From Lachnospiraceae bacterium (GTDB taxonomy: Bacteria; Bacillota; Clostridia; Lachnospirales; Lachnospiraceae): DNA of 37,215 nt. The translations under genes were made by a program, and so were the position numbers. Position 1 is the stretch's first letter. Each line of letters opens with the position of its first letter. Shown here one piece after another: positions 49 through 36,828 of this stretch. The stretch covers positions 1 to 37,215 of the forward strand of contig JAAWEK010000029.1 of NCBI GenBank assembly GCA_022794265.1, in the 5' to 3' direction. The notes under the pieces are model-generated. The model saw only the letters and a program-made list of their open reading frames with translations. It did not search any database and had not been told where the DNA came from.

Positions 49-260
49 AAGTTTTCCCGGATCCAGAACGACGTTAGCCATTCTTATCCGACACATCTTC
101 ATGTGTTCTGCTGTTCTTTTTGGATACTGTCTTCCGACAGTGTTCGCATTTGATGTCTTACATCTTGAAAAATTTGGAATTTTTCAGGGATGGTTGATAC
201 TGTTTAGTTTTCAATGTTCATGGTTTTTCTCTGCCGCTCTTTCCCAGCAGCAACTTTGGT
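49..260 (-). other. rRNA operon leader
   Basis: This is the transcribed leader between the proximal rrn promoter and 16S. On the minus strand it carries CATTGAAAACTAAACAGT, which resembles conserved clostridial rRNA spacer sequence. It also has two short hairpins: ACTGTC-loop-GACAGT near 126-142 and ACACAT-loop-ATGTGT near 90-106. Hairpins here could be pre-rRNA processing or antitermination structures; that role is inferred. No protein gene is supported. Confidence 0.6.
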
Positions 261-289
261 AGTTTACCATAACGCCAGGATTCTGTCAA
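261..289 (-). promoter_or_regulatory. rrn promoter P2 (proximal)
   Basis: On the minus strand there is a perfect -35 TTGACA at 284-289, a 17-bp spacer, and the -10 TAAACT at 261-266. It lies about 210 bases before 16S and points toward it. With the similar promoter at 367-395 it forms the tandem arrangement usual for rRNA operons. Confidence 0.88.
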
Positions 290-366
290 CTGTTTTTTTT
301 GACTTTTTTCTCAGTTCCCTGATTTTTTTATCGTTTTTTGTTGACCGTCTCACAAGCGACTTGAAT

Positions 367-395
367 ATGATATCACCCGGATTACCTTTTGTCAA
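367..395 (-). promoter_or_regulatory. rrn promoter P1 (distal)
   Basis: On the minus strand there is a perfect -35 TTGACA at 390-395, a 17-bp spacer, and the -10 TATCAT at 367-372. The -35 of both rrn promoters is preceded by the same AACAG context, which suggests a promoter duplication. Confidence 0.88.
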
Positions 396-520
396 CTGTT
401 TTTTGTAGATTTTTTGAATTTTGAATCAAGAGAAATTATTCCCTTCTCTTTGAATATTTCCATATAACGCCACATATCATAACATAAAGAATCCCGTTAG
501 TTACTTGAAAGGATATTACA

Positions 521-1057
521 ATGAACGATATAAAAAGACTCCGGCAGCTTGAAATCATCGGTATTCTATTTGTCATTACCACCGGCACACTGGCACATTT
601 TGTATATGACTGGAGTGGCAGGCAGAATATCATCGGACTGTTTTTTGCTCAAAACGAATCTACCTTTGAACATCTGAAACTGCTGTTCTATCCATACCTG
701 TTATATTCCGTATTGGAATACTGCCTTTTATTACACAGCTCTCTGACGGATTATGCCCAGAAACTCTCCTGTGGAAAATTCTTTGGTCTTCTTGCTGGTC
801 TTTTATCCATCATAACCCTTTTTTATACCTATACTGGTGTATTTGGAAACAGTATTCTCGCAGTTGATATTTCTATATTTATTCTCTCAGTAATTATAAG
901 TTTTATGGTCAGTTATTATCTGATCTCTCAGGAAACCTGCCTGTGCAGAGCAAATCCCGGAGTTTACCTGACATTAACCGGAATATTAATTTTTTACTTT
1001 CTGTTATTCAGTATCCGCCCGCCGGAAATTCCTTTATTCTCTCCGCCGAAGGACTAA
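521..1057 (+). CDS. DUF6512-like integral membrane protein
   Basis: A 178-residue protein with about five or six hydrophobic segments, so it is an integral membrane protein. The N-terminal stretch with LAHFVYDW and the later NESTFEHLKLLFYPY resemble the conserved signature that I associate with the clostridial DUF6512 family, whose function is unknown. The start is supported by AAAGGA ten bases upstream of ATG. The gene is convergent with the SNF2 helicase gene and the two stop codons share bases, so no terminator separates them. The family assignment is from memory of the motif. Confidence 0.75.
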   Translation: MNDIKRLRQLEIIGILFVITTGTLAHFVYDWSGRQNIIGLFFAQNESTFEHLKLLFYPYLLYSVLEYCLLLHSSLTDYAQKLSCGKFFGLLAGLLSIITLFYTYTGVFGNSILAVDISIFILSVIISFMVSYYLISQETCLCRANPGVYLTLTGILIFYFLLFSIRPPEIPLFSPPKD

Positions 1058-4000
1058 AAATCCAGTAATTCCATTAATTCTGCCCTGTCAAGTCTATTAT
1101 TTGTCATACCTTCACCGGAAACCACACGGTTGGCAAGTTCCGTCTTTTTCTCCTGAAGCCTGATAATTTTTTCTTCAATACTGTCCTTTGTTACTAGCTT
1201 CATAACCGACAGGGTCCGAATCTGTCCAATCCGGTATGCACGGTCTGTCGCCTGATTTTCAATAGCTCCGTTCCACCAAGGATCAACATGAATCACCACA
1301 TCTGCCGCTGTGAGATTCAATCCTGTTCCGCCTGCTTTCAAAGAAATTAAAAATACTGGTACCTGTTCTTTTTGAAATTCTTCCACCATTCTGCGCCGTT
1401 CTTCTTTAGTGTTTTTTCCGCTAAGAAATAAAAAAGATATATTTCTTATCTTTAACTCTTGTTCAATCTTTTTTAAAACGGTAACAAACTGGGAAAAAAC
1501 CAGAATCCGGTGTTCACCTTCCACTGCCTCTTCTATCAGTTCCATGCAGGTATCCATTTTACCAGAACCGCCATCATAATTTTCATAACATATATCCGGT
1601 GCACAGCAAATTTGCCGCAGTCTGGTCAGCTCCGCCAGAATTTTCAGCCGGTCCTCCTTCCATTCTTTCTCTGTTTTCTTTGCCAGCTCCATACGGAGCA
1701 AATCCAGTCTGGCATTATATAATTCCCTTTGTTTTTCGGTCATCCTTACATATACAATATGCTCCATCTTCGGCGGCAAATCTTTTAATACTTCCTCCTT
1801 TTTGCGTCTCAATATAAAAGGATGTACAAGTCTTTGTAATCTTTCCAGTATTGTTTCATCCTGATACCGGACGACAGGTATTTCATAATCCGCTTTAAAG
1901 CTTTCATAATCTTTCAGATATCCTGGCATAACGAAGTCAAAAATACTGTATAAATCGCTTAACCGGTTTTCAATAGGGGTTCCGGTCAATGCAAACCTTA
2001 CTTTTGCCTGGATTCTTTTTACCGCCCAGGACACCCGGGTTGTCAGATTTTTTATGTATTGAGCCTCATCGGCAATACAATACTGAAATCTGCAGAATTC
2101 ATATAACTCAATATCCCGTTTCAGCAAATCATATGAAGTGATAATGATATGATAATTTTCATATTCTTTTAACAGCTCTTCCCGTTTCTTCTGTTCCCCG
2201 ACTACTGCAAGTACCGATAAATCCGGTGCGAAACGGTTCACCTCACTTTCCCAGTTATAGACCAGGGAAGCTGGACAAATAATCAGGCTACTCTCTTTTT
2301 TTGCTTCCAGAAGAGTAATAATTTGTAATGTTTTTCCCAATCCCATATCATCTGCCAAAATTCCGCCGAATCCGAATTCAGACAGCATGGAGAGAAAGCG
2401 ATATCCTGTTTTCTGATAACTCCGCAGTTTTGCATTTAATTCTTCCGGAACTTCATAATCCGTATCTGATATTTCTTTCATATCTCTGGCAAGTTTTTTA
2501 AACTCTTTATTTCTCCGAACCGAATCGTCTACGGCTTTATCCCGTATGGTACCGTCTATATATCCTGCGAAATATCCGGGAATATGGATCGTACCAGTTA
2601 CAAATGCACCTCTGTCAAATCCCGGCCCGTTTTTAAGTTCTGCCAGCAGGGCAATATTTCCGTCCTCCAATCTGAAAAATTCTCCGCTTTTCAAACGGTA
2701 ATACTTCTTTTTATTGCGATAAGCTTCCAGAATATTATATATCTCATCTAAATTTAATTCTCCCGGCTGCACGGTGATATCAATCAAATCCCCATGCAGT
2801 CCTACACCAACCGACAGTTTCGGAGGTTCTGCTATTTTAAACACACTAAAATTATCTGCTGCATATACGGTTCCTACAGTATTTAATTCCGTGATTCCTT
2901 CACTTAAAAATCCAAACAGCTTTTCTTCTTCCGTGATTTTCCATTGTCTTCCTTCTTCTCCCCATATGATATTAAAATATTTCCCCACAATTTTCAGAAC
3001 TTCTCTTTCTTTTGCAATATCCCTGTATTCCCCCTCTGTTTCACGAATTTCATACAGTTCAAATATATCGTTTCCATATAACACATCTAACCTTAAAGTC
3101 AGAATTCCTCCTGTACCATCCAGATAGATATGAAATTTCGGTTCTGTGGGCATATAATCTTCTAAATTTATTCCCTCACAGACGATACCGATATGTTTTT
3201 GCAAACGGGTAATAACAGCGCCACAAAAAGCACGATAATCCGACCGGTTAATAAAATAAAAATTCCGGTCGGAATAGATTGCGCGCCTGCTCTTTTCTTT
3301 CATACTGTTCATGGTTCGGACAAACGGAATAACATCTTTAGAAAACTCCTGACTACAACGGAAAATCCCTTCTGTACACTGTACATAATCATGGCGGTCA
3401 CCATTTATGAGGCGGATTTCTTCCATATTTAATGATATTCCCATATCTGATTCATTCCGAATCATCAGACAAAGCTTCGGATTTTGTTCAGAAATCAGAT
3501 ATGGCCTGCCATCGATTATAAGTTCCTGATTCATATAAACCTGAAACAGCCGCTCCATAAAATACGGATAGACTGGTAGAAAACGATAATTACCAGAAAT
3601 CACTACCATTTCCTCAAAATTCGGAAAGCTTCCCTTAATCAGCTCCATTAAAAAATCCAGCTTTGGTAAGGATTCCTCCGCAAACGATGCTCTGTCATGA
3701 TACACCACACAGTTTTTTCCATACTCTGCCTGCTTCTTCGCCGTCATATCCTGTGCCAGTTTCACCAGATTCCGCACAACATATTTCTTTGTAATTCCTA
3801 TTTTTGCCTGAACAAGAAAACCATTCGCTCCGTTATTTGTAAGACTCAAATCCAAAAACACCTGACCACGGTCAGGTATCGTATCAGCAGTAACGGAATA
3901 TTTGCGGATTGCCGCCTGAATATCTCTGGAGGTTGGACGTTGCATTGTTACCGGAATCACCTCTTTTTTCAGTTCCTGGGATTTCCGGAATTTTACAAAG

Positions 4001-4293
4001 GAAAAGGCAACGGCCACATCATGTCTGCACATCTCGAATCCGTCTTTTTCACAAGTACAAGTATAATTGTATATTTTGCGTTCCTTGCTCTTTTCATCAA
4101 TCCACAATCTTACCTGATAAAGTTTCCCGTTTGGTTCATCACTTTCTTTAATCTCCGCAGTTACTTCATAGCGACCGGAATCCAGAAGCGGAATGACATT
4201 TAAACCATACACTCTCTGGCAGCCGTATAATTCCCGTCCCTGTTCATATTCCCGGTATTTGCTTATTTCCAGTATATCTTTGATTTCCAGCAC
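1054..4293 (-). CDS. SWIM zinc-finger SNF2-family DNA helicase/ATPase
   Basis: A large SNF2 protein (about 1079 residues). The N-terminus has a SWIM zinc finger (C79, C81, C89, H91 pattern CxC...CxH). A middle region matches the SNF2-associated bacterial type, and the C-terminal half carries the ATPase: DDMGLGKT near residue 647, DEAQ near 740, LTGTPIENR, and the C-lobe motifs SLKAGGTGLNL and QATDRAYRIGQ. It probably translocates on double-stranded DNA to remodel nucleoprotein or transcription complexes; the exact role in Clostridia is unknown. I chose the GTG at 4293 because GGGAGG lies just upstream; a GTG 30 bases earlier (4323) is also open. It is the last gene of a minus-strand run and overlaps the convergent DUF6512 gene by four bases. 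Confidence 0.93.
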   Translation of the reverse strand: MLEIKDILEISKYREYEQGRELYGCQRVYGLNVIPLLDSGRYEVTAEIKESDEPNGKLYQVRLWIDEKSKERKIYNYTCTCEKDGFEMCRHDVAVAFSFVKFRKSQELKKEVIPVTMQRPTSRDIQAAIRKYSVTADTIPDRGQVFLDLSLTNNGANGFLVQAKIGITKKYVVRNLVKLAQDMTAKKQAEYGKNCVVYHDRASFAEESLPKLDFLMELIKGSFPNFEEMVVISGNYRFLPVYPYFMERLFQVYMNQELIIDGRPYLISEQNPKLCLMIRNESDMGISLNMEEIRLINGDRHDYVQCTEGIFRCSQEFSKDVIPFVRTMNSMKEKSRRAIYSDRNFYFINRSDYRAFCGAVITRLQKHIGIVCEGINLEDYMPTEPKFHIYLDGTGGILTLRLDVLYGNDIFELYEIRETEGEYRDIAKEREVLKIVGKYFNIIWGEEGRQWKITEEEKLFGFLSEGITELNTVGTVYAADNFSVFKIAEPPKLSVGVGLHGDLIDITVQPGELNLDEIYNILEAYRNKKKYYRLKSGEFFRLEDGNIALLAELKNGPGFDRGAFVTGTIHIPGYFAGYIDGTIRDKAVDDSVRRNKEFKKLARDMKEISDTDYEVPEELNAKLRSYQKTGYRFLSMLSEFGFGGILADDMGLGKTLQIITLLEAKKESSLIICPASLVYNWESEVNRFAPDLSVLAVVGEQKKREELLKEYENYHIIITSYDLLKRDIELYEFCRFQYCIADEAQYIKNLTTRVSWAVKRIQAKVRFALTGTPIENRLSDLYSIFDFVMPGYLKDYESFKADYEIPVVRYQDETILERLQRLVHPFILRRKKEEVLKDLPPKMEHIVYVRMTEKQRELYNARLDLLRMELAKKTEKEWKEDRLKILAELTRLRQICCAPDICYENYDGGSGKMDTCMELIEEAVEGEHRILVFSQFVTVLKKIEQELKIRNISFLFLSGKNTKEERRRMVEEFQKEQVPVFLISLKAGGTGLNLTAADVVIHVDPWWNGAIENQATDRAYRIGQIRTLSVMKLVTKDSIEEKIIRLQEKKTELANRVVSGEGMTNNRLDRAELMELLDF

Positions 4294-4351
4294 GATTTTG
4301 CCTCCCTGTCCCACAGAATCCACAAATATTTTGCAAAAAACTCCACACGTT

Positions 4352-5335
4352 TTAAATCACATTGAATGACTTCAATATAAATATCCATCCGGTAATTGTA
4401 AATGCAGAACACAATGTGGTCAGCATTATAATACTGGAGGATAAAGTGCCTTCATGACCCATGTTTTTTGACATTACGTAACTGGTTGCCGTTGTGGGTG
4501 CTCCTAACATTACCAGGGCAGCGGCAATTTTATCGGCTGAAAATCCATACCATATGGCAACCGGAAGAAATACCAGCGGTTGAATGACAAGTTTAATCAG
4601 AGAAGCTGCAACGGCAGGTTTTATGTTTTTAAGCGCTTTTCTTCCCTCAAATCCTACGCCTATTACAATCAATGCCAGCGGTGTGGTAAGAGAACCGATA
4701 CTGCTTATGGTTTTATCAAGAATCACCGGAAAACCCACATCAAAAAAAGATAATAACATTCCGCCTAAAATACTTATTATTATAGGATTCTTACAAATTC
4801 CCTGAACAGAACTGATTATCTTTTTCTTCCTATGCCCGGTACTAATATGATTGCTTTCCATCTGTTGCCCATTCTCAAAGATTAGTACGATAACCGCAAA
4901 AATATTATAAAGCGGCACAGAGCCCAGCATCATTAACGGAGCCATCGTAGTATTTCCGCTGATGTTCTGGACAAGGGCAATACCCAGAATCGCTGCGCTT
5001 CCCCGGTATGCGCCCTGAACAAATTCTCCCACTATGGATTTGTCTTTTAAAACAATCCTGCTGCTTCCCCAAACAATCAGTATCCCTGTTAAAGTCACTG
5101 CCCCGCAATACAGGACATAGGCGCCGTCAAACGTATGGCGGATATCACATGCCATCATATTGTTCAATAGCATGGCCGGCAACGTAATTTTATAAACAAA
5201 GCTGTTTGCCGTTTTTGCAAATTCATCATTCAGCATACCCGTCCGTTTTAAAACATATCCCACTACAATAATTAAAAAAACAGGTATGACTGCATTAAGG
5301 CTGTATAGTAAATTCTCCATGTAACACCTGTGCAT
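4352..5335 (-). CDS. AEC-family (auxin efflux carrier-like) transporter
   Basis: About 327 residues with roughly ten hydrophobic helices. The N-terminal VIPVFLIIVVGYVLKRTGML, the following TLPAMLLNNM and the C-terminal LGAPTTATSYVMSKNMG are typical of the PF03547 permease family, which includes bacterial organic-acid and malate permeases. The substrate cannot be told. The start is ambiguous: the ATG at 5335 follows GGAGGG by five bases, while ATGs at 5347 and 5320 are in frame. It follows the ABC exporter pair after a 35-base gap and may be co-transcribed. Confidence 0.88.
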   Translation of the reverse strand: MHRCYMENLLYSLNAVIPVFLIIVVGYVLKRTGMLNDEFAKTANSFVYKITLPAMLLNNMMACDIRHTFDGAYVLYCGAVTLTGILIVWGSSRIVLKDKSIVGEFVQGAYRGSAAILGIALVQNISGNTTMAPLMMLGSVPLYNIFAVIVLIFENGQQMESNHISTGHRKKKIISSVQGICKNPIIISILGGMLLSFFDVGFPVILDKTISSIGSLTTPLALIVIGVGFEGRKALKNIKPAVAASLIKLVIQPLVFLPVAIWYGFSADKIAAALVMLGAPTTATSYVMSKNMGHEGTLSSSIIMLTTLCSAFTITGWIFILKSFNVI

Positions 5336-25712: not shown

Positions 25713-26920
25713 TCATTCTGTTTTCTCTTCTTTCTCCAACAAATGTTGGTATGTCATATCAATGCCAAATGCGCCTAATGGAGCTGTAATTATGATTGAC
25801 AATACGGCTACCGATAACACAAGATTTCCGCAAGGCAGACCTAAAGACAATGGTACTGAACCAATAGCGGCTTGAACTGTTGCCTTTGGCAGATAGGCAA
25901 TGACACAAAATATCTTTTCTTTTAAGTTGAGTTTTGTACCTATTAAGCACAGACAAACACCAACAGAACGAAATATAAGTGCAATAATAATTATGAGAAC
26001 GGCACCAAATCCGGCTTCCAAAGTATAACGTATATCAACTGCCGCCCCTACAAGCACAAATAGAATAACTTCAGCGGCAATCCACAGTTTGCCAAATTTT
26101 TCAGAAAGACGAGCCGAAACCGAAACAACACTCTTTAACCGTAACATACAAGCCATACTCATAACTGCAAGAAGTCCCGAAACAGGAATAACATTTTTTA
26201 ACCATTCTTCTAAAGCAATCAACAGAAAAGCTGTTCCCAAAACAATAATAACTTTCATACTGTTGCGTACATAATGCCTGTTTGCATATTTTGCTTCAAA
26301 ATAAGCAGATAGAAAAACCCCCACAACTGCCCCTATGAATATGCCTAAAATAATCGAAATGGGAATGGTGATAAAGTCCATAATATTTATTGAGTTTCCT
26401 TGTGCCATTCCGATAAAAGTTGAGAACAGTACAATGACAAAGACATCATCTAAGGAGGCTCCTGTTAAAATAAGCTGCGGAATACCTTTTTTTGTTCCAT
26501 ATTTTGTTTCCATAAGCTGCACCATTCTAGGCACAATAACTGCCGGAGATACGGCAGCAAGAACAGCCCCCATAATAGCTGCATCAATCAGTGTTATTTT
26601 AAAAATAGATGGTGCAAACAAGACAAATGCCAGTATCTCAAAAACTGCGGGTAAAAAGGACATTAGTATTACCGGACATCCTACTTTTTTAAGTCACTGA
26701 TATTTAGGGATAATCCGGCTTTAATCAAAATAATTACTAATGCCATTTGCCGCAAATCAGCAGATATACCCAAAATGGAAGCGTCTAAAAGATTAAGTGC
26801 ATACTGTCCTAAAATAATTCCCGTAACCAACATACCAATAATACGGGGAAATTTCATTTTTTGACAAATGGAAGCCATAGCAAGACCAACGAGAAAAATT
26901 AATGCAAATGATGTCAACAT
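25713..26920 (-). CDS. Cation:proton antiporter, frame broken at a slippery site
   Basis: The gene is read in two frames. The first (26920 to 26681, 79 residues) starts MLTSFALIFLVGLAMASICQ and ends ...LSLNISDLKK. The second (to 25713) continues VGCPVILMSFLPAVFEILAF. Joined, they give about 401 residues with some twelve helices, LTGASLDDVFVIVLFST and a helix with SPAVIVPRM, as in the PF00999 Na+/H+ exchanger family. The junction is A AAA AAG followed by TAG: a -1 slip gives DLKKVGCP, and a one-base loss in an A7 run would look the same. A probable fluoride riboswitch lies just upstream, so the physiological trigger may be fluoride. AGGA precedes the ATG. AT-rich relative to genes before 25 kb. 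Confidence 0.82.
26684..26690 (-). other. A AAA AAG slippery heptamer before a stop codon
   Basis: In the zero frame of the antiporter the codons are TTA AAA AAG TAG, so the heptamer A AAA AAG is in the register needed for tandem -1 slippage, as in E. coli dnaX. The stop (26683-26681) follows immediately. No clear upstream Shine-Dalgarno stimulator or strong downstream stem was found by eye. Confidence 0.5.
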
Positions 26921-26942: not shown

Positions 26943-27035
26943 AAAAAAGCTAATGCCTTTCTGCGATAATGATAATCACAGAAATCATCAGCTTAAAAAA
27001 GCAATTTTGATTTCCTATGGGAGAACTTCATTCCC
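26943..27035 (-). promoter_or_regulatory. Probable fluoride (crcB-motif) riboswitch with terminator
   Basis: On the minus strand the RNA starts GGGAATGAAGTTCTCCC, close to the crcB consensus GGnGAUGGnGUUCnCC; later GCTTTTTTAAGCTGATG matches the GCU...AGCUGAUG stem, and GATTTC can pair with GAAGTT in the first loop as the pseudoknot requires. The 3' aptamer strand (AGCTGATGATTTCTGTG) is also the 5' strand of a hairpin ending CATTAGC followed by T6, so ligand binding would prevent termination. It ends 22 bases before the antiporter ATG. The linker between the first stem and the third is longer than usual. Call rests on recalled consensus. Confidence 0.75.
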
Positions 27036-27043
27036 TTTCTTGC

Positions 27044-27072
27044 ACTTTAACAAAAAAACAGAAAAATGTCAA
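27044..27072 (-). promoter_or_regulatory. Promoter of the riboswitch/antiporter transcript
   Basis: Perfect -35 TTGACA (27067-27072), 17-bp spacer, -10 TAAAGT (27044-27049). The predicted start, near 27037, is at the first G's of the aptamer, which supports the riboswitch call. Confidence 0.8.
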
Positions 27073-27358
27073 TGCTTGTAATGGTAATTCTACAGATGCT
27101 GAAAAAGTCCTTAACAAATTGCAACAGATGTTGGATTTAAATACATCTTATGTTTCTATTCAATGTATTCATCCAGCTTTTCTCTAGCAGCAATCATTCA
27201 TTTAAATACATCTTAACAAAGTAATTCTAACAAAGCCTCATTTTACAGGTATTTCAGCAATTTATTGTCACTATATTGTTGCTAATTATATATAACTATC
27301 TACTACTTTTTAATACTTATTACTATTACAAAGCAATAATAACTAAATAAAAAAATGA

Positions 27359-27541
27359 AAACCCACAAAAAGCAGCAATGAGGAAATAATGCGTGATTAT
27401 CTAAAAAATTATGATATCAGCATCAAAAGCGGAACCGATGTCAATTCCGTCATGCGTGACATGATGTCCATCCTTTTAGAAGGTGCATTAGATGGAGGAG
27501 CCGGATGAAGAACTCGGTTATTCCAAATATAATTACCAGAA
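27359..27541 (+). pseudogene. IS256-type transposase N-terminal remnant (plus strand)
   Basis: The frame reads MRDYLKNYDISIKSGTDVNS then VMRDMMSILLEGALD, followed after a frameshift by DEELGYSKYNYQN. These match the N-terminus of the IS256/mutator-type transposase copy at 36261-36755 (IRIKDGTDVNSVMRDMMS, ELGYSKYDYRN). There is no start region and no catalytic part. The fragment ends abruptly where an inverted related fragment begins. Confidence 0.78.
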
Positions 27542-27542
27542 C

Positions 27543-27683
27543 TCCGTTCCTGCTGTCATCGTTTTTTTTATTTCTATAGTCATACTTGGAGCAACCCAGC
27601 TCTTCATCCAAAGCACCTTCCAGAATGATGATGGACATCTTCTCTCTAAATGCCTTTTTGTGGACTTTCGTTTTTCTTGTCAT
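27543..27683 (-). pseudogene. IS256-type transposase N-terminal remnant (minus strand)
   Basis: ATG at 27683 opens MTRKTKVHKKAFREK, then MSIIILEGALDEELGCSKYD and DYRNKKNDDSRNG, matching the IS256-type N-terminus but lacking about 30 residues (the IKDGTDVNSVMRDM part). It is followed directly by the inverted plus-strand fragment. Upstream, CTCCAAACTG and CAGTTTGGAG (27690-27733) reproduce the hairpin seen before the copy at 36755, so it retains part of the element's left end. Confidence 0.75.
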
Positions 27684-27907
27684 AATAAAATCTCCAAACT
27701 GAGCAATATTTCTTACATCAGTTTGGAGATTTTAGACTTTCAAAGTGTTATATTCTTCTTAATTATACAAAATATAAATACGGTAGTCAAGAAAAAAATA
27801 AAATTTATTACATATCCTCACACAGACATACCCGCAAATCTCAACTTACTCAAAGCATTCATTCAAAAGAGATTTTCTATAATAGATAAGTCAATTTTTT
27901 TCATATT
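27684..27907. other. Intergenic, IS left-end hairpin then no recognisable feature
   Basis: The first 50 bases hold an inverted repeat (AAATCTCCAAACTG with CAGTTTGGAGATTT) that belongs to the IS256-type left end. The remaining AT-rich part has no ORF I can support. Confidence 0.5.
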
Positions 27908-28616
27908 CTATTTGACATATTTTATCGAATTTAAATCGAAGTTCATTTCCTGATTCATCATTACTATAACCCAATTTCCTTTTTTAGATATCCTTTCATT
28001 TAAAACTCTATCCAGTTTTGTTCCATCCTGGAAGAAAAAAGAAACATATTTCAATTCATAAGAACTTTGATTTTCTAATACTATTATAGCAATAATTAAA
28101 CATATTAAAATTGATAATAAATTAATCACTTTAAAGAATGAACCTATCAAAATTTCCAATGCATTAGTTATAATTGGCAAATATATAATTATTTTCCTAA
28201 TTTTTTTGTAATTTATAAATTTTTGTTTCATCTTTAAAATTTCATTCTCTTTATCACTTTCATATATATTTTTTAGAAAATATATGCATATGCCAACAAA
28301 TATAATATAAATAAGTAATTTCCTTATTTGATATGTAATTGTTGTGTCCGATATACTATATACTATATACTATATACTCGATACATAGTATACCAAAAAA
28401 TCCAACAATAATTGTCATAATATATATATAAATCCAAATGCGAAGTTGCAAAGTAATGTATCTGTCAAAGGAACCTTTTTTAACAGTTCCTCTCCATCCA
28501 TTTTCTAATTTTAACGGATGAAAAAAATTATGCAAATATGGTATTATAAAAATCAATAAAGGTATAATACCATAATATATATCCTCCCTATTTAAATTCC
28601 TTATTAATTCAATCAT
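27908..28616 (-). CDS. Putative membrane protein split by a heptanucleotide repeat
   Basis: Two ORFs are seen: 28616-28356 (86 residues, MIELIRNLNREDIYYGIIP...) and 28231-27908 (107 residues, MKQKFINYKKIRK...). The first ends inside a run of four 7-bp repeats at 28351-28378. The second frame is open upstream back to the repeats, and removal of one unit (three copies) joins both into a single 233-residue ORF with no stop. The joined protein would have about five helices (near residues 14-30, 58-82, 92-111, 135-150, 155-175) and a soluble C-terminal tail. The family is not recognised. It follows the AP2 gene by 29 bases on the same strand; AAAGGA precedes the ATG. Confidence 0.6.
28351..28378. 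repeat. Heptanucleotide tandem repeat, 4 copies
   Basis: Four perfect copies of ATATACT (AGTATAT on the coding strand). Seven is not a multiple of three, so a change in copy number shifts the reading frame of the gene that contains it, the classical arrangement for slipped-strand phase variation. Confidence 0.92.
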
Positions 28617-28645: not shown

Positions 28646-29332
28646 TCATTTTTCTGGATACGTTTCGGAATACCATGCCAGAAAATCACCAAATATATTT
28701 TTTTCAGCTTCATTTCTGGCAGCTATCGCCTCTTTTTTTTCAGAAAACCTTCCCAAATGATAATTTCTACCTTTAAAACAAATTTGAGCTCTCCATTTAT
28801 TTCTTGCTGAATCCCATGTTACACCTTTAATACCAGACGTGTTATTTTTTGGTATCTTTGCAGTTAAATTCTTAACATTTGTGCCTTCCACACAAAAATT
28901 TTCTGCAACATTCTTCCCTGCGATTTTACCATTATTAGAAGAAGTTTCTGCTGCAAAACATCCGCAGCTACGGACTGCTTTTTTTATCAAATTGCTTGCT
29001 GATACATATGCTATATTCCCACAAGAACATTCACATTTCCAAACAACTGAACCATTGATATTATCTCTCTGCTCTGTAGCTTCTATAGCTTTTAAGCGAC
29101 CAAATTCACAATTTGTTAAATCTTTTCCTTTTTTTAAATTATATTTCGCATTATAACAACCGCAACTTACACATCTGCCGGAAGTTACGTCCTCTACCCG
29201 CATCCATTTTTTTTCTTCACAATACGGACAAATTATATATAAATAAGTCCGCCCATTTTCTCTTTTTGAATCCAAAATCTTAAACCCATTAACAGTGGTT
29301 CCTACCCGTTCTGTAGCTTTTACATATGGCAT
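28646..29332 (-). CDS. Zinc-ribbon/AP2 domain protein
   Basis: 228 residues. The N-terminal half has two Cys clusters: CPYC with CVSCGC (about residues 35-58) and CECSCG with CGC (about 100-125), likely zinc sites. The C-terminus (SGIKGVTWDSARNKWRAQIC, FKGRNYHLGRFSEKKEAIAA) is an AP2/ERF DNA-binding domain. This domain is usual in phage and mobile-element HNH homing endonucleases, but no HNH core is visible here, so it is probably a DNA-binding protein or a nuclease derivative. GGGGAG lies upstream of ATG. It stands between the split membrane gene and the kinase-helicase operon, on the same strand, in very AT-rich DNA that suggests transfer. Confidence 0.85.
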   Translation of the reverse strand: MPYVKATERVGTTVNGFKILDSKRENGRTYLYIICPYCEEKKWMRVEDVTSGRCVSCGCYNAKYNLKKGKDLTNCEFGRLKAIEATEQRDNINGSVVWKCECSCGNIAYVSASNLIKKAVRSCGCFAAETSSNNGKIAGKNVAENFCVEGTNVKNLTAKIPKNNTSGIKGVTWDSARNKWRAQICFKGRNYHLGRFSEKKEAIAARNEAEKNIFGDFLAWYSETYPEK

Positions 29333-29637: not shown

Positions 29638-31083
29638 TTATTTATTTTTCTTTTTGTACCTGTACTTTCTATATGGTTGAGCTGTATCGCGTTTTTCGGT
29701 TTTATTATACTTCTGCTGTTCCTTTTTAGATGACTTGGATTTTGATAACGAAAATGATATCTCATAATCTTTGATTATATTAGCCATCTTATTCTTAATA
29801 ACATCAGAATCAAATTCTATTCGCCCTTCAAATACTGTAATCGGCCTATCAAAAACCTTTTCTGTTTTCTCCACAAACTCCACCAGAATATTAGGATAAA
29901 AACATACAAATTGTTCATTCGCTTCTTTTCTTTTTGATACAGACACTTCTTTTCTCTTTATTTTATCTCCAAACAGTTGTTCAAATATTTTTTCAATATT
30001 ATACTCTCTTTCCTCATATAATACCCAAATCTTCTTTTTAGTTATCTGATCTAATGCAGACACCATTCCAGAGGTCAAGAATTTTCTTAATCTTTCACAC
30101 GAAATAATTATTCCTTCATAATCGAATTCTTTATTATATGAAAATAACACCTCTAATTCCGTCTGGTCAATCAAAGCTCTAGTATGCATATATTCATCTA
30201 ATAATTCATCTGAAACTATTTCGGTTCCACTAAGTTTTCCTATCAAATCTTTTGTGTATTTCCTATTATCCTGATTGAGGATCATCTTATCATAGTGATC
30301 TTGTGCAAAATTCCAATTTCTTTCAAAAAAGTTTTCCATTCCAGGAAATACTACATCTCGAACTTGATTATAAAAACTATTTTGATATTTTTCTCCTATA
30401 TCTCCTTTTATAACAAACTCATAATCCTCTGTCTCATCATTTTTATAAATGAGAAGTTCATCTTTCACAAAATACAGTTTTTCATAAGCAATATCTAGAA
30501 TCTTATACAATTCTCTCTGTAAAACCCTTGTATTAAAAACATTGGCTTCTATCTGATTCCGTTGATATATTCCATTTATAGTTACATAATTACTTTCCAA
30601 AAAATCTTTTGTAATTGTTTGTTCTTGACTTAAACAAATTTCACTTTTGGAAGGATGTACAATTACATTTTTTCCACTTTCTTCAATGCTTCCTGTAATC
30701 ATATTAACGGAAAGTTCATTTAAATTTTTTTTACGAATAGTAACTAACTTTCTATCTGCTAATGCCTTTTTCCCTTCAGGTGTCATAATCAACTTATTTT
30801 CTGAAGTAATTATATATTTTTGCTCAATCATATCAACTATGGTTTCTTTTAAAAGTTTAAACTTCACGCCCATAATTGAAGAAATTTCATATACATCAGA
30901 TACTTCAATATCAATTAATCTTAATATTGTTTCAAAAAATAAATTAATTTCAGTTACTTCCTTCGTCAAACAAGTAATACCAATTTCACAAAAAGGAATA
31001 TAGATATCCTGTCTTTTAATCAAATGAAAATTTTTTAATTGCCGGGGAAGCTTTCCCGCTACGGCTTCTACTACCGGTTTCAT
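29638..31083 (-). CDS. Unrecognised 481-aa partner of the kinase-helicase
   Basis: I do not recognise a named family. An N-terminal segment (about residues 45-110, ETILRLIDIEVSDVYEISSI then LLKETIVDMIEQKYIITSEN) looks like a winged helix. A later part (about 345-385, EGIIISCERLRKFLTSGMVS then IWVLYEE) has the beta-alpha-beta rhythm of phospholipase-D-like domains, but no HxK motif is seen. The last 50 residues are strongly basic (KSKSSKKEQQKYNKTEKRDT), suiting nucleic-acid contact. It starts ten bases after the kinase-helicase stop with GGAGG upstream, so the two are one operon and likely act together. Alternatives are a substrate of the kinase or a regulator of the helicase. Confidence 0.8.
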   Translation of the reverse strand: MKPVVEAVAGKLPRQLKNFHLIKRQDIYIPFCEIGITCLTKEVTEINLFFETILRLIDIEVSDVYEISSIMGVKFKLLKETIVDMIEQKYIITSENKLIMTPEGKKALADRKLVTIRKKNLNELSVNMITGSIEESGKNVIVHPSKSEICLSQEQTITKDFLESNYVTINGIYQRNQIEANVFNTRVLQRELYKILDIAYEKLYFVKDELLIYKNDETEDYEFVIKGDIGEKYQNSFYNQVRDVVFPGMENFFERNWNFAQDHYDKMILNQDNRKYTKDLIGKLSGTEIVSDELLDEYMHTRALIDQTELEVLFSYNKEFDYEGIIISCERLRKFLTSGMVSALDQITKKKIWVLYEEREYNIEKIFEQLFGDKIKRKEVSVSKRKEANEQFVCFYPNILVEFVEKTEKVFDRPITVFEGRIEFDSDVIKNKMANIIKDYEISFSLSKSKSSKKEQQKYNKTEKRDTAQPYRKYRYKKKNK

Positions 31084-31093
31084 CCTTTTCCTC

Positions 31094-34000
31094 CTACTCC
31101 TCTATAATGCGACATCCTTCTGATTCTTTAATATATTTAATGATTTCAGGAAATTTATTTCCCCTAATTCTATAATTATCAAGGAAATTCATATCCCCAA
31201 CAATAATCAACAAACATCTTGCTCTAGAAAATGCAACATTAATTCTGGCTTCCAATTTCAAAAATCCAATGCCATATTTATTTGCACTACTTCGAACAGT
31301 TGAATAAAGAATAATATCTTTCTGGCTTCCTTGAAATGCATCTACAGTATCTACATCAATTTCAAGATTCTTGTAAGAATGCTGTTTCATCATTGTCTGT
31401 AAAATGTATTTTTGCGGTCCATATCCTGTGATCACTGCAACTTTAGTCCTTTGGGTAAGTTTAGAATCTAATTCCAACAATTTCTTTTCAATAATATTCC
31501 GTTCAAGATAATTTTGATATGATTTTTTTCCATTATTATCAAACTCCTTTTCATATCGTTCTTTGTTGGAATATTTTGATGTACTGATCCATTCAATTGC
31601 AGTACCCTCATACCCTTCTATACACAACTCTCTATCCTGTGCTTCTACACCATTCTGAATTTCATCTTTGTAAAACACATGGCTAATTAGTGTACCAATG
31701 GTCGGATGCATCCTGTATTGAATCGTAAGACGATGTTTATTATCATCTGGAAACATATTATACATTTTTTCAAAAATTCCTTGTGCCAAACTCTCTTCAT
31801 CAAGTTTTTCTCTATTATTTTTTATTATTTCGTTATCCAAAACTGGCGGTAATTGCTGATGATCACCCACCAGTATAATTTTATGCGCTTTATTTAATGA
31901 AACAGCTAATTCTGGAAAAGTTGCCTTGGCAGCTTCATCTACGATCACATAGTCAAAATCTACATCACGTATAATTCTGTTTGATACAAATCCGGTACAT
32001 GTTCCAGCAATAATTACTGTGCTTTTAATAATATATAATTCAATTTCATCACATTTTTTTAATTGCTCTGTCCACTCCCTTTGAATCTCTAAAATTTTTC
32101 TTGTTCTTTCTGATTTTATTCCTTTTGTTTTTTCTTTAAATCTATCAATAAGTTTCTGGTCTTCTTTTGAAAATTGTATATTTTCAATCTTTGAATTTTC
32201 TAATTTTGAAAAATACTGTTCAAATTCCTCTTCTTGTATTCCTATTTCTTCAAGTGCATTCCTAGCATATTCATTGCATAATTGTCTGACAGTTTGATAC
32301 CACTTCTCTTTTACATCATTAATAGAATACTCTTCTTTTATTTCCTCATTTAATTTATCATCTCTTCCTATACGGAGTAAATCCGGTCTTTTGTCACTTT
32401 CTCTGATCAAGTCTTCTAACATTTTATCCACTGCAGGATGTGATTGTGATACCAGCAAAACCTTCTTAGGCTCAATATCTGGATTCTGCTTATTCGATTT
32501 CAGTATTTGCAAAATTATTTCAATAATAACATTTGTTTTTCCTGTTCCAGGAGGACCTTGAATAATTGCTATTGAATCGGCATCTAACACTTTTTTAATT
32601 GCAGTCCTTTGAGACAAGTCCAATTTCTTATTAAAGAAATGTATAGGTTTTGAGATGACACTAACTGAAGGAGATTCTACCCCTGAAATAATTCTTTTCA
32701 AATTAAAAGAACACTGATAATCTTCTTTTTCTAAAACATTTAGTGCATCTAACTGTCTTTCAACATTGATCTTATCTTTTCTATAGTCTAAACAAATATA
32801 ACCACTTACTGGCAGCCCTATCGTTCCCTGCTTATTTATTTCTAAAACAACATGTCCTTTTTCATAAAGATCGTTCTCATAAATACCTATTGGTAAGGTC
32901 TTTATTCGGTCTTTTTTCCGCCCCTCTTTCTTCTCGTAAATAAACATTTGTTCCTTATTTAATCGTTCTTCATCTATAAATGTTCCCTTTTTAAGCCTGA
33001 ATCTTAAAAGATTCTCTTTCACTTCATAAGAATCATAAGGCAATCTCACAACATTTTTCTCAATATCTTCCCTTATTAACTCTAATAAATCTCGCCATAC
33101 TCCATATTTTTCCTTATACTCACAATCGACATTATTATTGGATATATAATTTTCATAATAGTCAATAATAATGTTTTTGATTTCAAAACTATTATTTTTT
33201 TGTTCCCAGTGTGCAAACTTTTTATCTACAAATCTTATTTTTCCTTCAAGTTTAGCATACCTTTTCCTCAATCTATCTCGCTCAATAGGTGATACCTTTT
33301 TAAACTTCACAACATCAAATACACTTTGCTCATCGTCAAACACACATTCTGCCAGAAAATTAAATCCTATAAAAATATAAACCATTGTTTCCACTTTCTC
33401 GTCAGATTCTTTCCTACAAAACGCATATAAATCTAAAAAGTTTTCTGGTATACAAGTTTCAGAAACCATTTTAATATCTGCCGACTGTGGCAACAGCTTA
33501 AGACTTCTCAATTCTTTTATTCGTTCATACGCCGCAGTCATAATTATTGTTTTATCCAAATCTAAGAAACGTGCAAATAACCTTGTAAAGTCGGATCTTA
33601 ATTCAAAAATATCTTCATACCTATCATTAGGATCTTCTGCTACCAGTTTCTTCAAAATGGGCTTTAATAAAACATCCATTCCTCGTGTTCTATCCAATAC
33701 ATTCTGAAACTGTACTGCCAATGGAGGCTGCTTTCCTGTAAACAAATAATAAACCACTGCACCAAGTGAATACAAATCACTTTTTTCAGTCGCATTTTCA
33801 CTGTGCTGATGAACCTCTGGTGCAGAATAGGCATTTGTTCCTAATTTATATACTGTTGCGGAATTAATCATATCATTGATTTTGCATATGCCAAAATCAA
33901 TCAATTTTACATTCTTATCCTCAGTAAGCATAATATTATTAGGGTTGATATCTCTATGAATGATACCATTAGAATGCGAAATTTCAATGGCATCTAATAA

Positions 34001-34354
34001 TTGTTTTATAATTGAAAATCTTTCTTTCGCACTAAAATTTTCAATGGGTGTTTTTCCTAATTCAATACCATTTATATACTCTAGATAAATCACACCAACC
34101 TTTTCTTTTGTTGTCGATGTACGCAAATAATCTTCTCCTAAAATATTCACAATGTTTGAACATTTATTTAATTTATGTAAGGCTCTCATTTCTCTTGTAA
34201 ATATAGCCTGATATAAAGGTTGTTCAATGCCAAAGATAATTTTTCTGACAATTAAATCTCCATTATCCTTATTTTTCAATACATCCACCACAGAATTTGT
34301 ATCTCCGCGTTCTTTCAGTCTTTTATATTCTTCCCAATCTTTAAATGTACTCAT
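31094..34354 (-). CDS. Ser/Thr protein kinase fused to SF1 (UPF1/DNA2-like) helicase
   Basis: 1086 residues. Residues 1-260 are a Hanks-type kinase: VRK Lys38, Glu55 in the C helix, HRD 133-135, Asn140, DFG 153-155, APE 178-180 (SAPE), and DRYEDIFEL at the end. The catalytic loop reads HRDINPNN, with Asn where most kinases have Lys, and the Gly-rich loop is degenerate. After a middle region (about 270-570) comes an SF1B helicase: GPPGTGKT 600-607, DEAA 806-809, GDHQQLPP 830-837, QYRMHP 879-884, VDAFQGSQKD near 1004 and VAFSRAR 1040-1046. There is no transmembrane segment. AAGGAG precedes the ATG and an extended -10 lies at 34392-34397. Kinase-helicase fusions are candidates for anti-phage defence, but function is not established here. 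Confidence 0.93.
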   Translation of the reverse strand: MSTFKDWEEYKRLKERGDTNSVVDVLKNKDNGDLIVRKIIFGIEQPLYQAIFTREMRALHKLNKCSNIVNILGEDYLRTSTTKEKVGVIYLEYINGIELGKTPIENFSAKERFSIIKQLLDAIEISHSNGIIHRDINPNNIMLTEDKNVKLIDFGICKINDMINSATVYKLGTNAYSAPEVHQHSENATEKSDLYSLGAVVYYLFTGKQPPLAVQFQNVLDRTRGMDVLLKPILKKLVAEDPNDRYEDIFELRSDFTRLFARFLDLDKTIIMTAAYERIKELRSLKLLPQSADIKMVSETCIPENFLDLYAFCRKESDEKVETMVYIFIGFNFLAECVFDDEQSVFDVVKFKKVSPIERDRLRKRYAKLEGKIRFVDKKFAHWEQKNNSFEIKNIIIDYYENYISNNNVDCEYKEKYGVWRDLLELIREDIEKNVVRLPYDSYEVKENLLRFRLKKGTFIDEERLNKEQMFIYEKKEGRKKDRIKTLPIGIYENDLYEKGHVVLEINKQGTIGLPVSGYICLDYRKDKINVERQLDALNVLEKEDYQCSFNLKRIISGVESPSVSVISKPIHFFNKKLDLSQRTAIKKVLDADSIAIIQGPPGTGKTNVIIEIILQILKSNKQNPDIEPKKVLLVSQSHPAVDKMLEDLIRESDKRPDLLRIGRDDKLNEEIKEEYSINDVKEKWYQTVRQLCNEYARNALEEIGIQEEEFEQYFSKLENSKIENIQFSKEDQKLIDRFKEKTKGIKSERTRKILEIQREWTEQLKKCDEIELYIIKSTVIIAGTCTGFVSNRIIRDVDFDYVIVDEAAKATFPELAVSLNKAHKIILVGDHQQLPPVLDNEIIKNNREKLDEESLAQGIFEKMYNMFPDDNKHRLTIQYRMHPTIGTLISHVFYKDEIQNGVEAQDRELCIEGYEGTAIEWISTSKYSNKERYEKEFDNNGKKSYQNYLERNIIEKKLLELDSKLTQRTKVAVITGYGPQKYILQTMMKQHSYKNLEIDVDTVDAFQGSQKDIILYSTVRSSANKYGIGFLKLEARINVAFSRARCLLIIVGDMNFLDNYRIRGNKFPEIIKYIKESEGCRIIEE

Positions 34355-34624: not shown

Positions 34625-34825
34625 CAAAAAAACTGATATAAGACTTATGAATAGTTACTTAAGGGCAAAGCTGATTTTAATTAGTTCTATCCTTACCTGT
34701 ATTATACAGAACTTTTTCTGTATGTCAATAAAACCTGACGAAACAGGATGTTTTACAGCCTTCCTCTATACCACGATTTCTGAGTTCGTTCATGATGGAC
34801 ATCATGTCACGCATGACGGAGTTGC
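34625..34825 (-). mobile_element. Decayed, internally deleted IS256-type remnant
   Basis: From 34626 the sequence AACTGATATAAGAC and the following GGGCA and TGTATTATACA segments match the right-hand end of the copy at 36271-36828. It then jumps to CATCATGTCACGCATGACGG (34799-34818), the antisense of the VMRDMMS codons. The middle of the transposase is missing and neither terminal repeat remains intact. Orientation is the same as the copy at 36.3-36.8 kb. Confidence 0.72.
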
Positions 34826-36260: not shown

Positions 36261-36755
36261 CTAAAATAACGAGACTGTTTCACGTTTTGTGTAAACTAAA
36301 AAACTGATATAAGATGTGTAAATAGTTACAATGGGCAGAGCCGGGTTTTCTGGTTCTGCCCTTGTCTGTATTATACAAAGATTTTTGGAACTATCAATAC
36401 AGGCCGGAAAGCTTTCTGTATTCTGGTATTTTTTGATAAGCTGTGGCTCATAGTCTCCGTTCCGGTCACGAGGGATTGAGACATCCATATCTCCATAACT
36501 GGTATGCATTGTCTTTTTTGAGTGTCCGTTGCGGCTGTTGTCCGTTTTCTTGTTGCGGTAATCATACTTTGAGTAGCCGAGCTCTTCGTCCAGTTCCTCA
36601 TCCAGTACGCCTTCGAGAAGGACGGACATCATGTCACGCATGACGGAATTTACATCGGTGCCATCTTTGATGCGGATATCGTTATCTTTCTGATAATCAC
36701 GCATCATTTCTCTCATTGCTGCTTTTTGTGGACTGTCATTTTTTCTTCTTGCCAT
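36261..36755 (-). pseudogene. IS256-type transposase, truncated by internal deletion
   Basis: The ATG at 36755 follows GGAGG by eight bases and opens MARRKNDSPQKAAMREMMRD, then IKDGTDVNSVMRDMMSVLLE and IPRDRNGDYEPQLIKKYQNT, the N-terminal ~110 residues of an IS256/mutator (DDE) transposase, which is normally near 400 residues. The reading then enters the element's 3' non-coding end and stops at 36261, so the DDE catalytic residues are missing. It cannot transpose itself but could be moved by an intact relative. Confidence 0.88.
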
Positions 36756-36828
36756 AAATAAAACCTCCAAACTGTGTAATCTTATCTTACATCAATTTGG
36801 AAGTTTACACAAACTTTGAGATAGTCCC
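36271..36828 (-). mobile_element. Internally deleted IS256-type element with both ends
   Basis: The ends are imperfect terminal inverted repeats: GAGACTGTTTCACGTTTTGT at 36271 and, from the other end, GGGACTATCTCAAAGTTTGT, both followed by GTAAAC. The flanking 8-mers AAAATAAC (36263-36270) and AAAATACC (36829-36836) differ by one base and fit the 8-bp target duplication of this family. The 558-bp length and lost middle make it a MITE-like derivative. Confidence 0.82.

Follow-up and report, generated by a model that had tools for sequence, protein, structure and literature searches.

Analysis of a 37,215-nucleotide (nt) stretch of DNA from a Lachnospiraceae bacterium (contig JAAWEK010000029.1; hereafter the window) revealed two adjacent genes on the minus strand whose products correspond to the two proteins of Mokosh type I, a defence system reportedly first described by Millman et al. 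in 2022. The mkoA-like gene (positions 31094 to 34354, minus strand) encodes a protein of 1086 amino acids (aa) in which PADLOC, Pfam and open reading frame (ORF) analysis identified a protein kinase and a UPF1-like superfamily 1 (SF1) helicase. The mkoB-like gene (29638 to 31083, minus strand) encodes a protein of 481 aa. The stop codon of mkoA ends at 31094 and the ATG of mkoB lies at 31083, which leaves a gap of 10 nt, with an AGGAGG motif across the junction. Both ORFs and the 10-nt spacing had been given in a preliminary description made from the sequence alone, and both were confirmed.

PADLOC-DB 2.0 named the 1086-aa protein MkoA (PDLC03921, E value of 1.7e-203; PDLC03920, E value of 3.7e-173; aa 19 to 1082) and the 481-aa protein MkoB (PDLC03923, E value of 4.5e-51; aa 15 to 440). 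The MkoA and MkoB models also fitted the pairs of three related loci, L033, L034 and L035 (L046, used below, is the reverse complement of L035). In the control for the MkoB model, PDLC03923 matched none of 14 control genomes. PDLC03922 matched three of the 14 (Escherichia coli, Deinobacterium chartae and Haloferax volcanii), so its matches to 16 of 18 downstream partners of MkoA at an E value of 0.001 or less support but do not prove their homology. The features of Mokosh type I that are present in the window are a kinase and a UPF1-like helicase in one protein and an adjacent gene of the MkoB family; its nuclease features, a catalytic HKD motif in MkoB and a NERD domain in MkoA, are absent from the pair. 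By family models, the window pair is Mokosh type I. Taken together, the sequence evidence indicates that the pair is probably an antiphage system of the Mokosh type I-like kind, and a variant without a recognizable nuclease. The preliminary description had compared the pair to antiphage systems, and the defence models bear out this resemblance. It had also stated that no named system has this composition and proposed a candidate new system. An unnamed new system was rejected, since PADLOC names both proteins, and the preliminary description had itself given prior assignment to a named defence system as grounds for refuting the claim. A type I Mokosh is also described in a 2024 paper (PMC11672841).

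The kinase domain of MkoA spans aa 17 to 222 (33689 to 34306, minus strand; Pkinase, E value of 2.4e-33) and carries Lys38, HRD at 133 to 135, DFG at 153 to 155 and APE at 178 to 180, within SAPE at 177 to 180. The glycine-rich loop is noncanonical by reading (ERGDTNS), so the term "complete Hanks kinase," used in the preliminary description, holds for these motifs and is otherwise slightly overstated. Comparison with solved structures placed PknB first for the kinase. Other defence-kinase models (PD-T4-6, mad6 and Stk2) also matched the domain, more weakly than the MkoA models. Helicase domain 1 (aa 578 to 839; 31838 to 32623, minus strand; AAA_11, E value of 3.2e-46) contains GPPGTGKT at 600 and DEAA at 806, and helicase domain 2 (aa 858 to 1055; 31190 to 31783, minus strand; AAA_12, E value of 2.4e-44) contains QYRMHP at 879 and VAFSRAR at 1040, in agreement with the SF1B motifs noted earlier. 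The top solved-structure matches of the helicase were UPF1, SMUBP-2 and NAM7. Two further defence models matched MkoA: MkoC with an E value of 7.1e-33, its best stretch lying within the helicase, and PglW with an E value of 9.6e-15, far below its cut-off, its best stretch lying in the kinase. The middle region (aa 265 to 560) gave a single match to solved structures (E value of 0.27), and the Pfam scan found no NERD domain in the protein. The catalytic Lys, the HRD Asp and the DFG Asp are retained in all seven members of the clade of the window, with DYG in L132, and the helicase motifs are likewise retained across the seven.

The N-terminal part of MkoB contains a predicted winged-helix domain at aa 48 to 110 (30754 to 30942, minus strand; predicted local distance difference test [pLDDT] score of the model, ~87 to 93). 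Foldseek matched it to DtxR, MntR and CggR with a probability of 1.00 but with E values of 0.03 to 0.2. CggR was also matched by a profile of 12 MkoB sequences (E value of 4e-5); the profile of the seven clade sequences reached only 0.029, the best of its three matches to solved structures. These results support the winged-helix-like N terminus proposed earlier. The archaeal regulators TrmB and TrmBL2, also considered for comparison, are not known to have a helicase or kinase partner. The C-terminal end (aa 447 to 481; 29641 to 29745, minus strand) forms a basic tail, as had been noticed, with 15 Lys or Arg and 3 Asp or Glu in the last 35 residues; the tail is also basic in L131 and L132 and is not basic in L033, L034, L046 and L047.

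Between these parts lies a possible degenerate PLD-like domain (aa 305 to 450; 29734 to 30171, minus strand) with no HxK or HKD. For the C terminus of the window MkoB, structure prediction gave, at low confidence, a PLD fold from which the catalytic residues are missing; in the first model, residues 250 to 278 and 366 to 481 mostly scored below a pLDDT of 50, and PLD was absent among the 50 Foldseek matches listed. Pfam gave no PLD match in the window MkoB, and a profile comparison of the C-terminal part alone gave no support for PLD. The degenerate PLD-like region of the preliminary description was thus a fair guess, which the structure prediction favours at low confidence and which neither Pfam nor the C-terminal profile supports. 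Over its whole length, the clade MkoB profile matched the HKD-bearing MkoBs described below with a probability of 98.8 and an E value of 1.4e-16 across 425 columns. The pair could be an ordinary Mokosh type I in which the MkoB C terminus is still a nuclease that acts through unrecognized residues and differs by sequence divergence alone. The resemblance of the predicted fold to PLD nucleases and the identical gene order and family models agree with such a reading. Nevertheless, HKD was found neither in the window MkoB nor in the six other clade members; past aa 285, six of the seven contain no HxK, L047 has a lone HTK without the rest of the motif, and R302, E309 and Y356 are the only invariant polar residues of the seven sequences. 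We therefore regard a hidden nuclease in MkoB as unlikely.

To examine whether MkoA and MkoB are conserved together, genome contigs were scanned with an alignment of MkoA, and the best 80 of 379 relatives were taken as loci. An ORF matching the helicase profile was present in 78 of the 80, and the same ORF also matched the kinase profile (E value of 1 or less) in 15, the weakest of these kinase matches being that of L064 (E value of 0.0019). In 14 of the 15 kinase-helicase loci, the ORF was followed on the same strand, at -37 to +6 nt by our own start calls, by a gene for 440 to 525 aa; in the remaining locus, L116, the frame is incomplete and stops inside the helicase 18 nt short of the contig end. 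The same adjacency was found in L033, L034, L131 and L132. The pair is thus conserved together. A search for a third conserved gene that might supply a nuclease, by BLASTP of ORFs of at least 70 aa across six loci (the window, L033, L046, L047, L131 and L132), found only MkoA and MkoB in common, besides one weak recombinase-like pair (L033 and L131) and one weak regulator-like pair (L033 and L046). Since L034 and L046 end soon past MkoB, these two loci say little about downstream genes.

The distribution of the pair is sporadic. A clear MkoB was found in four of 391 genomes of the class (the window's own genome, G063, G243 and G210), and the preceding gene in G063, G243 and G210 encodes a kinase-helicase. 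At an E value of 0.001 or less, PDLC03923 matched 77 of the 391, of which only these four are clear; the rest are short and weak and lie mostly over the winged helix. Four of 397 genomes of the family, the own genome included, had a clear MkoB, and this set yielded the closer relatives L131 and L132. Within the genus, three of nine genomes matched, but in two the match was weak and lay over the winged helix. MkoB was present in one of seven genomes of the order of G063 and in one of 33 of that of G243, in each case the genome at the centre of the search. No relatives of MkoB were found in plasmid records, phage records or viral contigs, and none of MkoA in viral contigs. This pattern bears on a different role for the pair, that of a stress or RNA-surveillance module in which a UPF1-like helicase is combined with a regulatory kinase and which is not antiviral. 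The solved-structure matches to UPF1, SMUBP-2 and NAM7 would fit such a role, and no defence gene is shown beside mkoAB (enrichment near defence genes was not examined). However, the few clear MkoBs at class, family and genus level, the recombinases beside two relatives and the location in a low-GC island (see below) argue against a surveillance module, which we consider quite improbable.

The MkoA and MkoB of L131 share 80% and 58% identity, respectively, with those of the window, and those of L132 share 65% and 40%. The ratio of nonsynonymous to synonymous substitutions (dN/dS) against L131 was 0.063 for MkoA and 0.188 for MkoB, and that of MkoB against L132 was 0.296, as calculated by the NG86 method with dS values of 1.5 to 2.0, which are near saturation. 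MkoB diverges faster than MkoA, most strongly in the C-terminal part and the tail: its identity to L131 is 80% for aa 1 to 45, 49% for the C-terminal part and 29% for the tail. The missing nuclease motif could also mark loss of function in a decayed remnant, and the absence of HKD, the insertion-element pieces on both sides of the genes and the L132 MkoB frame, which lacks ~45 N-terminal residues and starts 123 nt past MkoA by our own start call, could be read in this way. Against decay, the window frames are open, the helicase motifs and kinase catalytic residues are kept in the seven clade members, dN/dS is well below 1, and HKD is absent from the whole clade, and a remnant is very unlikely.

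The nuclease modules of the family were then compared in an alignment of 21 MkoAs (18 of the 80 scan loci, the window, L033 and L034) and 18 partners (17 scan loci and the window). Of these scan loci, 15 had a kinase match, whereas L085, L086 and L101 had none and served for comparison; L116 is without a partner. NERD was found in eight of the 21 MkoAs, that is, in all eight long ones (1443 to 1670 aa, L116 incomplete), and it scored above the cut-off in the N-terminal 600 aa of each of these eight. The PLD HKD pattern was found in five of the 18 partners (L048, L057, L059, L063 and L066), as was Pfam PLDc_2 in five of the 18, and the five HKD-bearing partners are paired with short MkoAs without a NERD match. 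Among the complete partners of NERD-type MkoAs, seven in number, none has the HKD pattern (L060 has HAK without the rest), and NERD and HKD occur together in no pair of the sample. Neither module was found in the window, L033, L034, L046 and L047, nor in the comparison loci L085, L086 and L101. Many pairs without HKD are thus also fitted by the Mokosh models. The MkoBs of L131 and L132 are without HKD, and the MkoAs of these two loci, to which the Pfam scan was not applied, align end to end with the window MkoA and leave no room for an extra domain. L036, in which PLDc_2 is present, and L037, which gave no Pfam match, were left unplaced, as their MkoAs are incomplete in the loci.

In a maximum-likelihood tree of the helicases, the NERD group forms one side of a branch (100/100), and the window, L033, L034, L046 and L047, five of the pairs with neither module, form one group (96/95). 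The HKD-bearing pairs need two changes on this tree because L059, which like L101 has a long branch, falls apart from the others. Because few pairs were sampled, and these by their similarity to the clade of the window, the mutual exclusion of NERD and HKD is a lead and not a rule. The passages on Mokosh that were consulted, from literature without most subscription journals, describe neither a division between NERD and HKD nor a branch lacking both domains. Beyond the assignment to a named system, the sequences indicate that neither nuclease module of the other Mokosh type I branches is recognizable in the window pair.

Comparison with described systems places the pair closest to Mokosh type I, with which it shares a kinase-helicase MkoA followed by MkoB, models that match nearly all of both proteins, and the gene order; it differs in that its MkoB is without HKD and its MkoA without NERD. 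According to the 2024 paper, the RNA helicase and the PLD nuclease of type I are encoded by separate genes and an STK domain is added (PMC11672841); in the table of a 2023 review, the domains entered for type I are NERD and PLD (PMC10952713). Mokosh type II (MkoC) likewise has a UPF1-like helicase, together with a PLD to which the possible degenerate domain of the window MkoB would correspond, but is described as a single protein (PMC11672841), whereas the window has two genes and a kinase. NERD and a kinase in one protein, as in long MkoAs such as that of L049, are given for PglW of BREX type 2 in PMC12839542; the window MkoA differs in having no NERD.

A stand-alone relative of the CoCoNuT proteins CnuH and CnuE, rather than a Mokosh, was considered as well. 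In CoCoNuTs, UPF1-like helicases are followed by a gene for a winged-helix protein whose nuclease effectors vary, and contact between the two proteins is suggested by an AF2 model (PMC11090510); the window helicase and winged-helix protein, with a putative variable effector part, fit this arrangement of CnuH and CnuE. According to the same paper, however, CoCoNuTs are McrBC-type GTPase systems and their kinase is a separate gene (TerY-P), whereas the kinase of the window is fused to the helicase. A Pfam scan of 27 ORFs of the window (one of 77 aa and 26 of the 59 with at least 80 aa) found no McrB-type GTPase, and the MkoA and MkoB models span nearly the full proteins. A stand-alone CoCoNuT relative is considered very unlikely. 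Two sets of scan loci without a kinase match were observed in addition. Ten loci (L055, L062, L069, L071, L072, L075, L080, L083, L093 and L106) encode UPF1-like helicases of 1232 to 1284 aa, each followed by a gene for 244 to 260 aa, and are possibly another two-gene system. Eleven loci (L054, L074, L094, L099, L103, L104, L107, L108, L110, L118 and L119) encode UPF1-like helicases of 1117 to 1541 aa followed by a gene for 661 to 837 aa, with weak matches of the L110 and L119 partners to the MkoB profile; they may belong to CoCoNuT-like systems or to helicase-effector pairs of another kind.

Analysis of the genomic localization showed that mkoAB lies in AT-rich DNA, as had been described, with a GC content of 26 to 33% in the eight 1-kb segments between 28 and 36 kb and of ~35 to 44% in most segments of 1 to 27 kb. 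Three IS256/Mutator-type pieces (27350 to 27732, 34627 to 34824 and 36273 to 36826) flank the genes on both sides, which agrees with the IS256-type remnants of the preliminary description: the right piece matches Pfam PF00872 (E value of 1.6e-21; 36261 to 36770), and positions 27383 to 27494 of the left piece match 36599 to 36710 of the right piece in inverted orientation at 83%. The right piece has imperfect inverted repeats (36273 to 36315 and 36784 to 36826) and resembles a short deletion derivative. In L131, mkoAB is immediately preceded by three genes of recombinase size and one small gene (127 to 4861). Only the middle of the three was searched, and it matches tyrosine recombinases; the set resembles a Tn554-type element. 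The one neighbour gene searched in L047 matches serine recombinases. The low-GC stretch between insertion-element pieces and the recombinases beside L131 and L047 fit mobility, and the mkoAB pair looks horizontally acquired.

Further features surround the pair. A 12/12 match to a sigma-70 promoter (TTGACA, 16 nt, TATAAT; 34701 to 34728, minus strand) lies within the middle insertion-element piece and faces mkoA at a distance of ~350 nt; promoter-like sites in total (46) were not above those in shuffled sequences (41.6; standard deviation, 6.1). For the AP2 gene noted earlier next to the pair (28646 to 29332, minus strand), the Pfam AP2 match is weak (24.9 bits; cut-off, 33.3), whereas phage families that bear the name HNH endonuclease match strongly (phrog_374, E value of 3e-32). 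For the membrane gene described as possibly phase-variable, a perfect repeat of four 7-bp units (28351 to 28378) was found at the 3' end of an 86-aa membrane-like ORF, and slippage in this repeat could alter the C terminus of the product. A fluoride riboswitch (RF01734, 41.6 bits; 26972 to 27044, minus strand) precedes a Na+/H+ exchanger-like gene (PF00999; 25713 to 26935, minus strand), the frame of which is broken near 26680, reflecting either a pseudogene or a sequencing error.

The sources on the Mokosh mechanism differ in what they give. Degradation of viral transcripts is named in a passage of PMC11291487; a 2026 review lists the mechanism as unknown, in a table row shared with other systems (PMC12926258); and in a table of another review, Mokosh is listed with systems linked to mutations in functional proteins of phages (PMC10286901). 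For the Mokosh type I-like pair of the window, we propose that MkoA and MkoB would assemble into a complex, with MkoB coupled to the helicase through its winged-helix part, by analogy with the proposal for CnuH and CnuE of CoCoNuT. The helicase would engage phage RNA or exposed single-stranded DNA during infection, and its ATP cycle would activate the complex. Other branches of Mokosh type I would then act by cutting, either through PLD in MkoB or through NERD in MkoA. In the branch of the window, the output might instead lie in the phosphorylating activity of the kinase or in a host nuclease that is recruited; these outputs are preferred because no nuclease was recognized in the pair. The degenerate PLD-like part of MkoB may have been kept as a nucleic-acid-binding or regulatory platform. 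As a whole, and with kinase output or host-nuclease recruitment as the effector, this mechanism is offered tentatively, as a possibility and not as an expectation. A more specific version, in which Mokosh type I swaps its effector by branch (PLD in MkoB, NERD in MkoA, or neither) and the clostridial branch that includes the window signals through phosphorylation by its canonical RD-type kinase and does not cut, with the helicase as sensor of RNA or single-stranded DNA and the dead PLD fold as platform, is speculative and rather unlikely.

A branch that has kinase and helicase but neither recognizable nuclease represents a natural separation-of-function experiment. The apparent either-or occurrence of NERD and HKD predicts that the two domains fulfil one function, each in its own subunit. 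If the branch of the window still blocks phages, cleavage by Mokosh itself would not be the sole output of the system.
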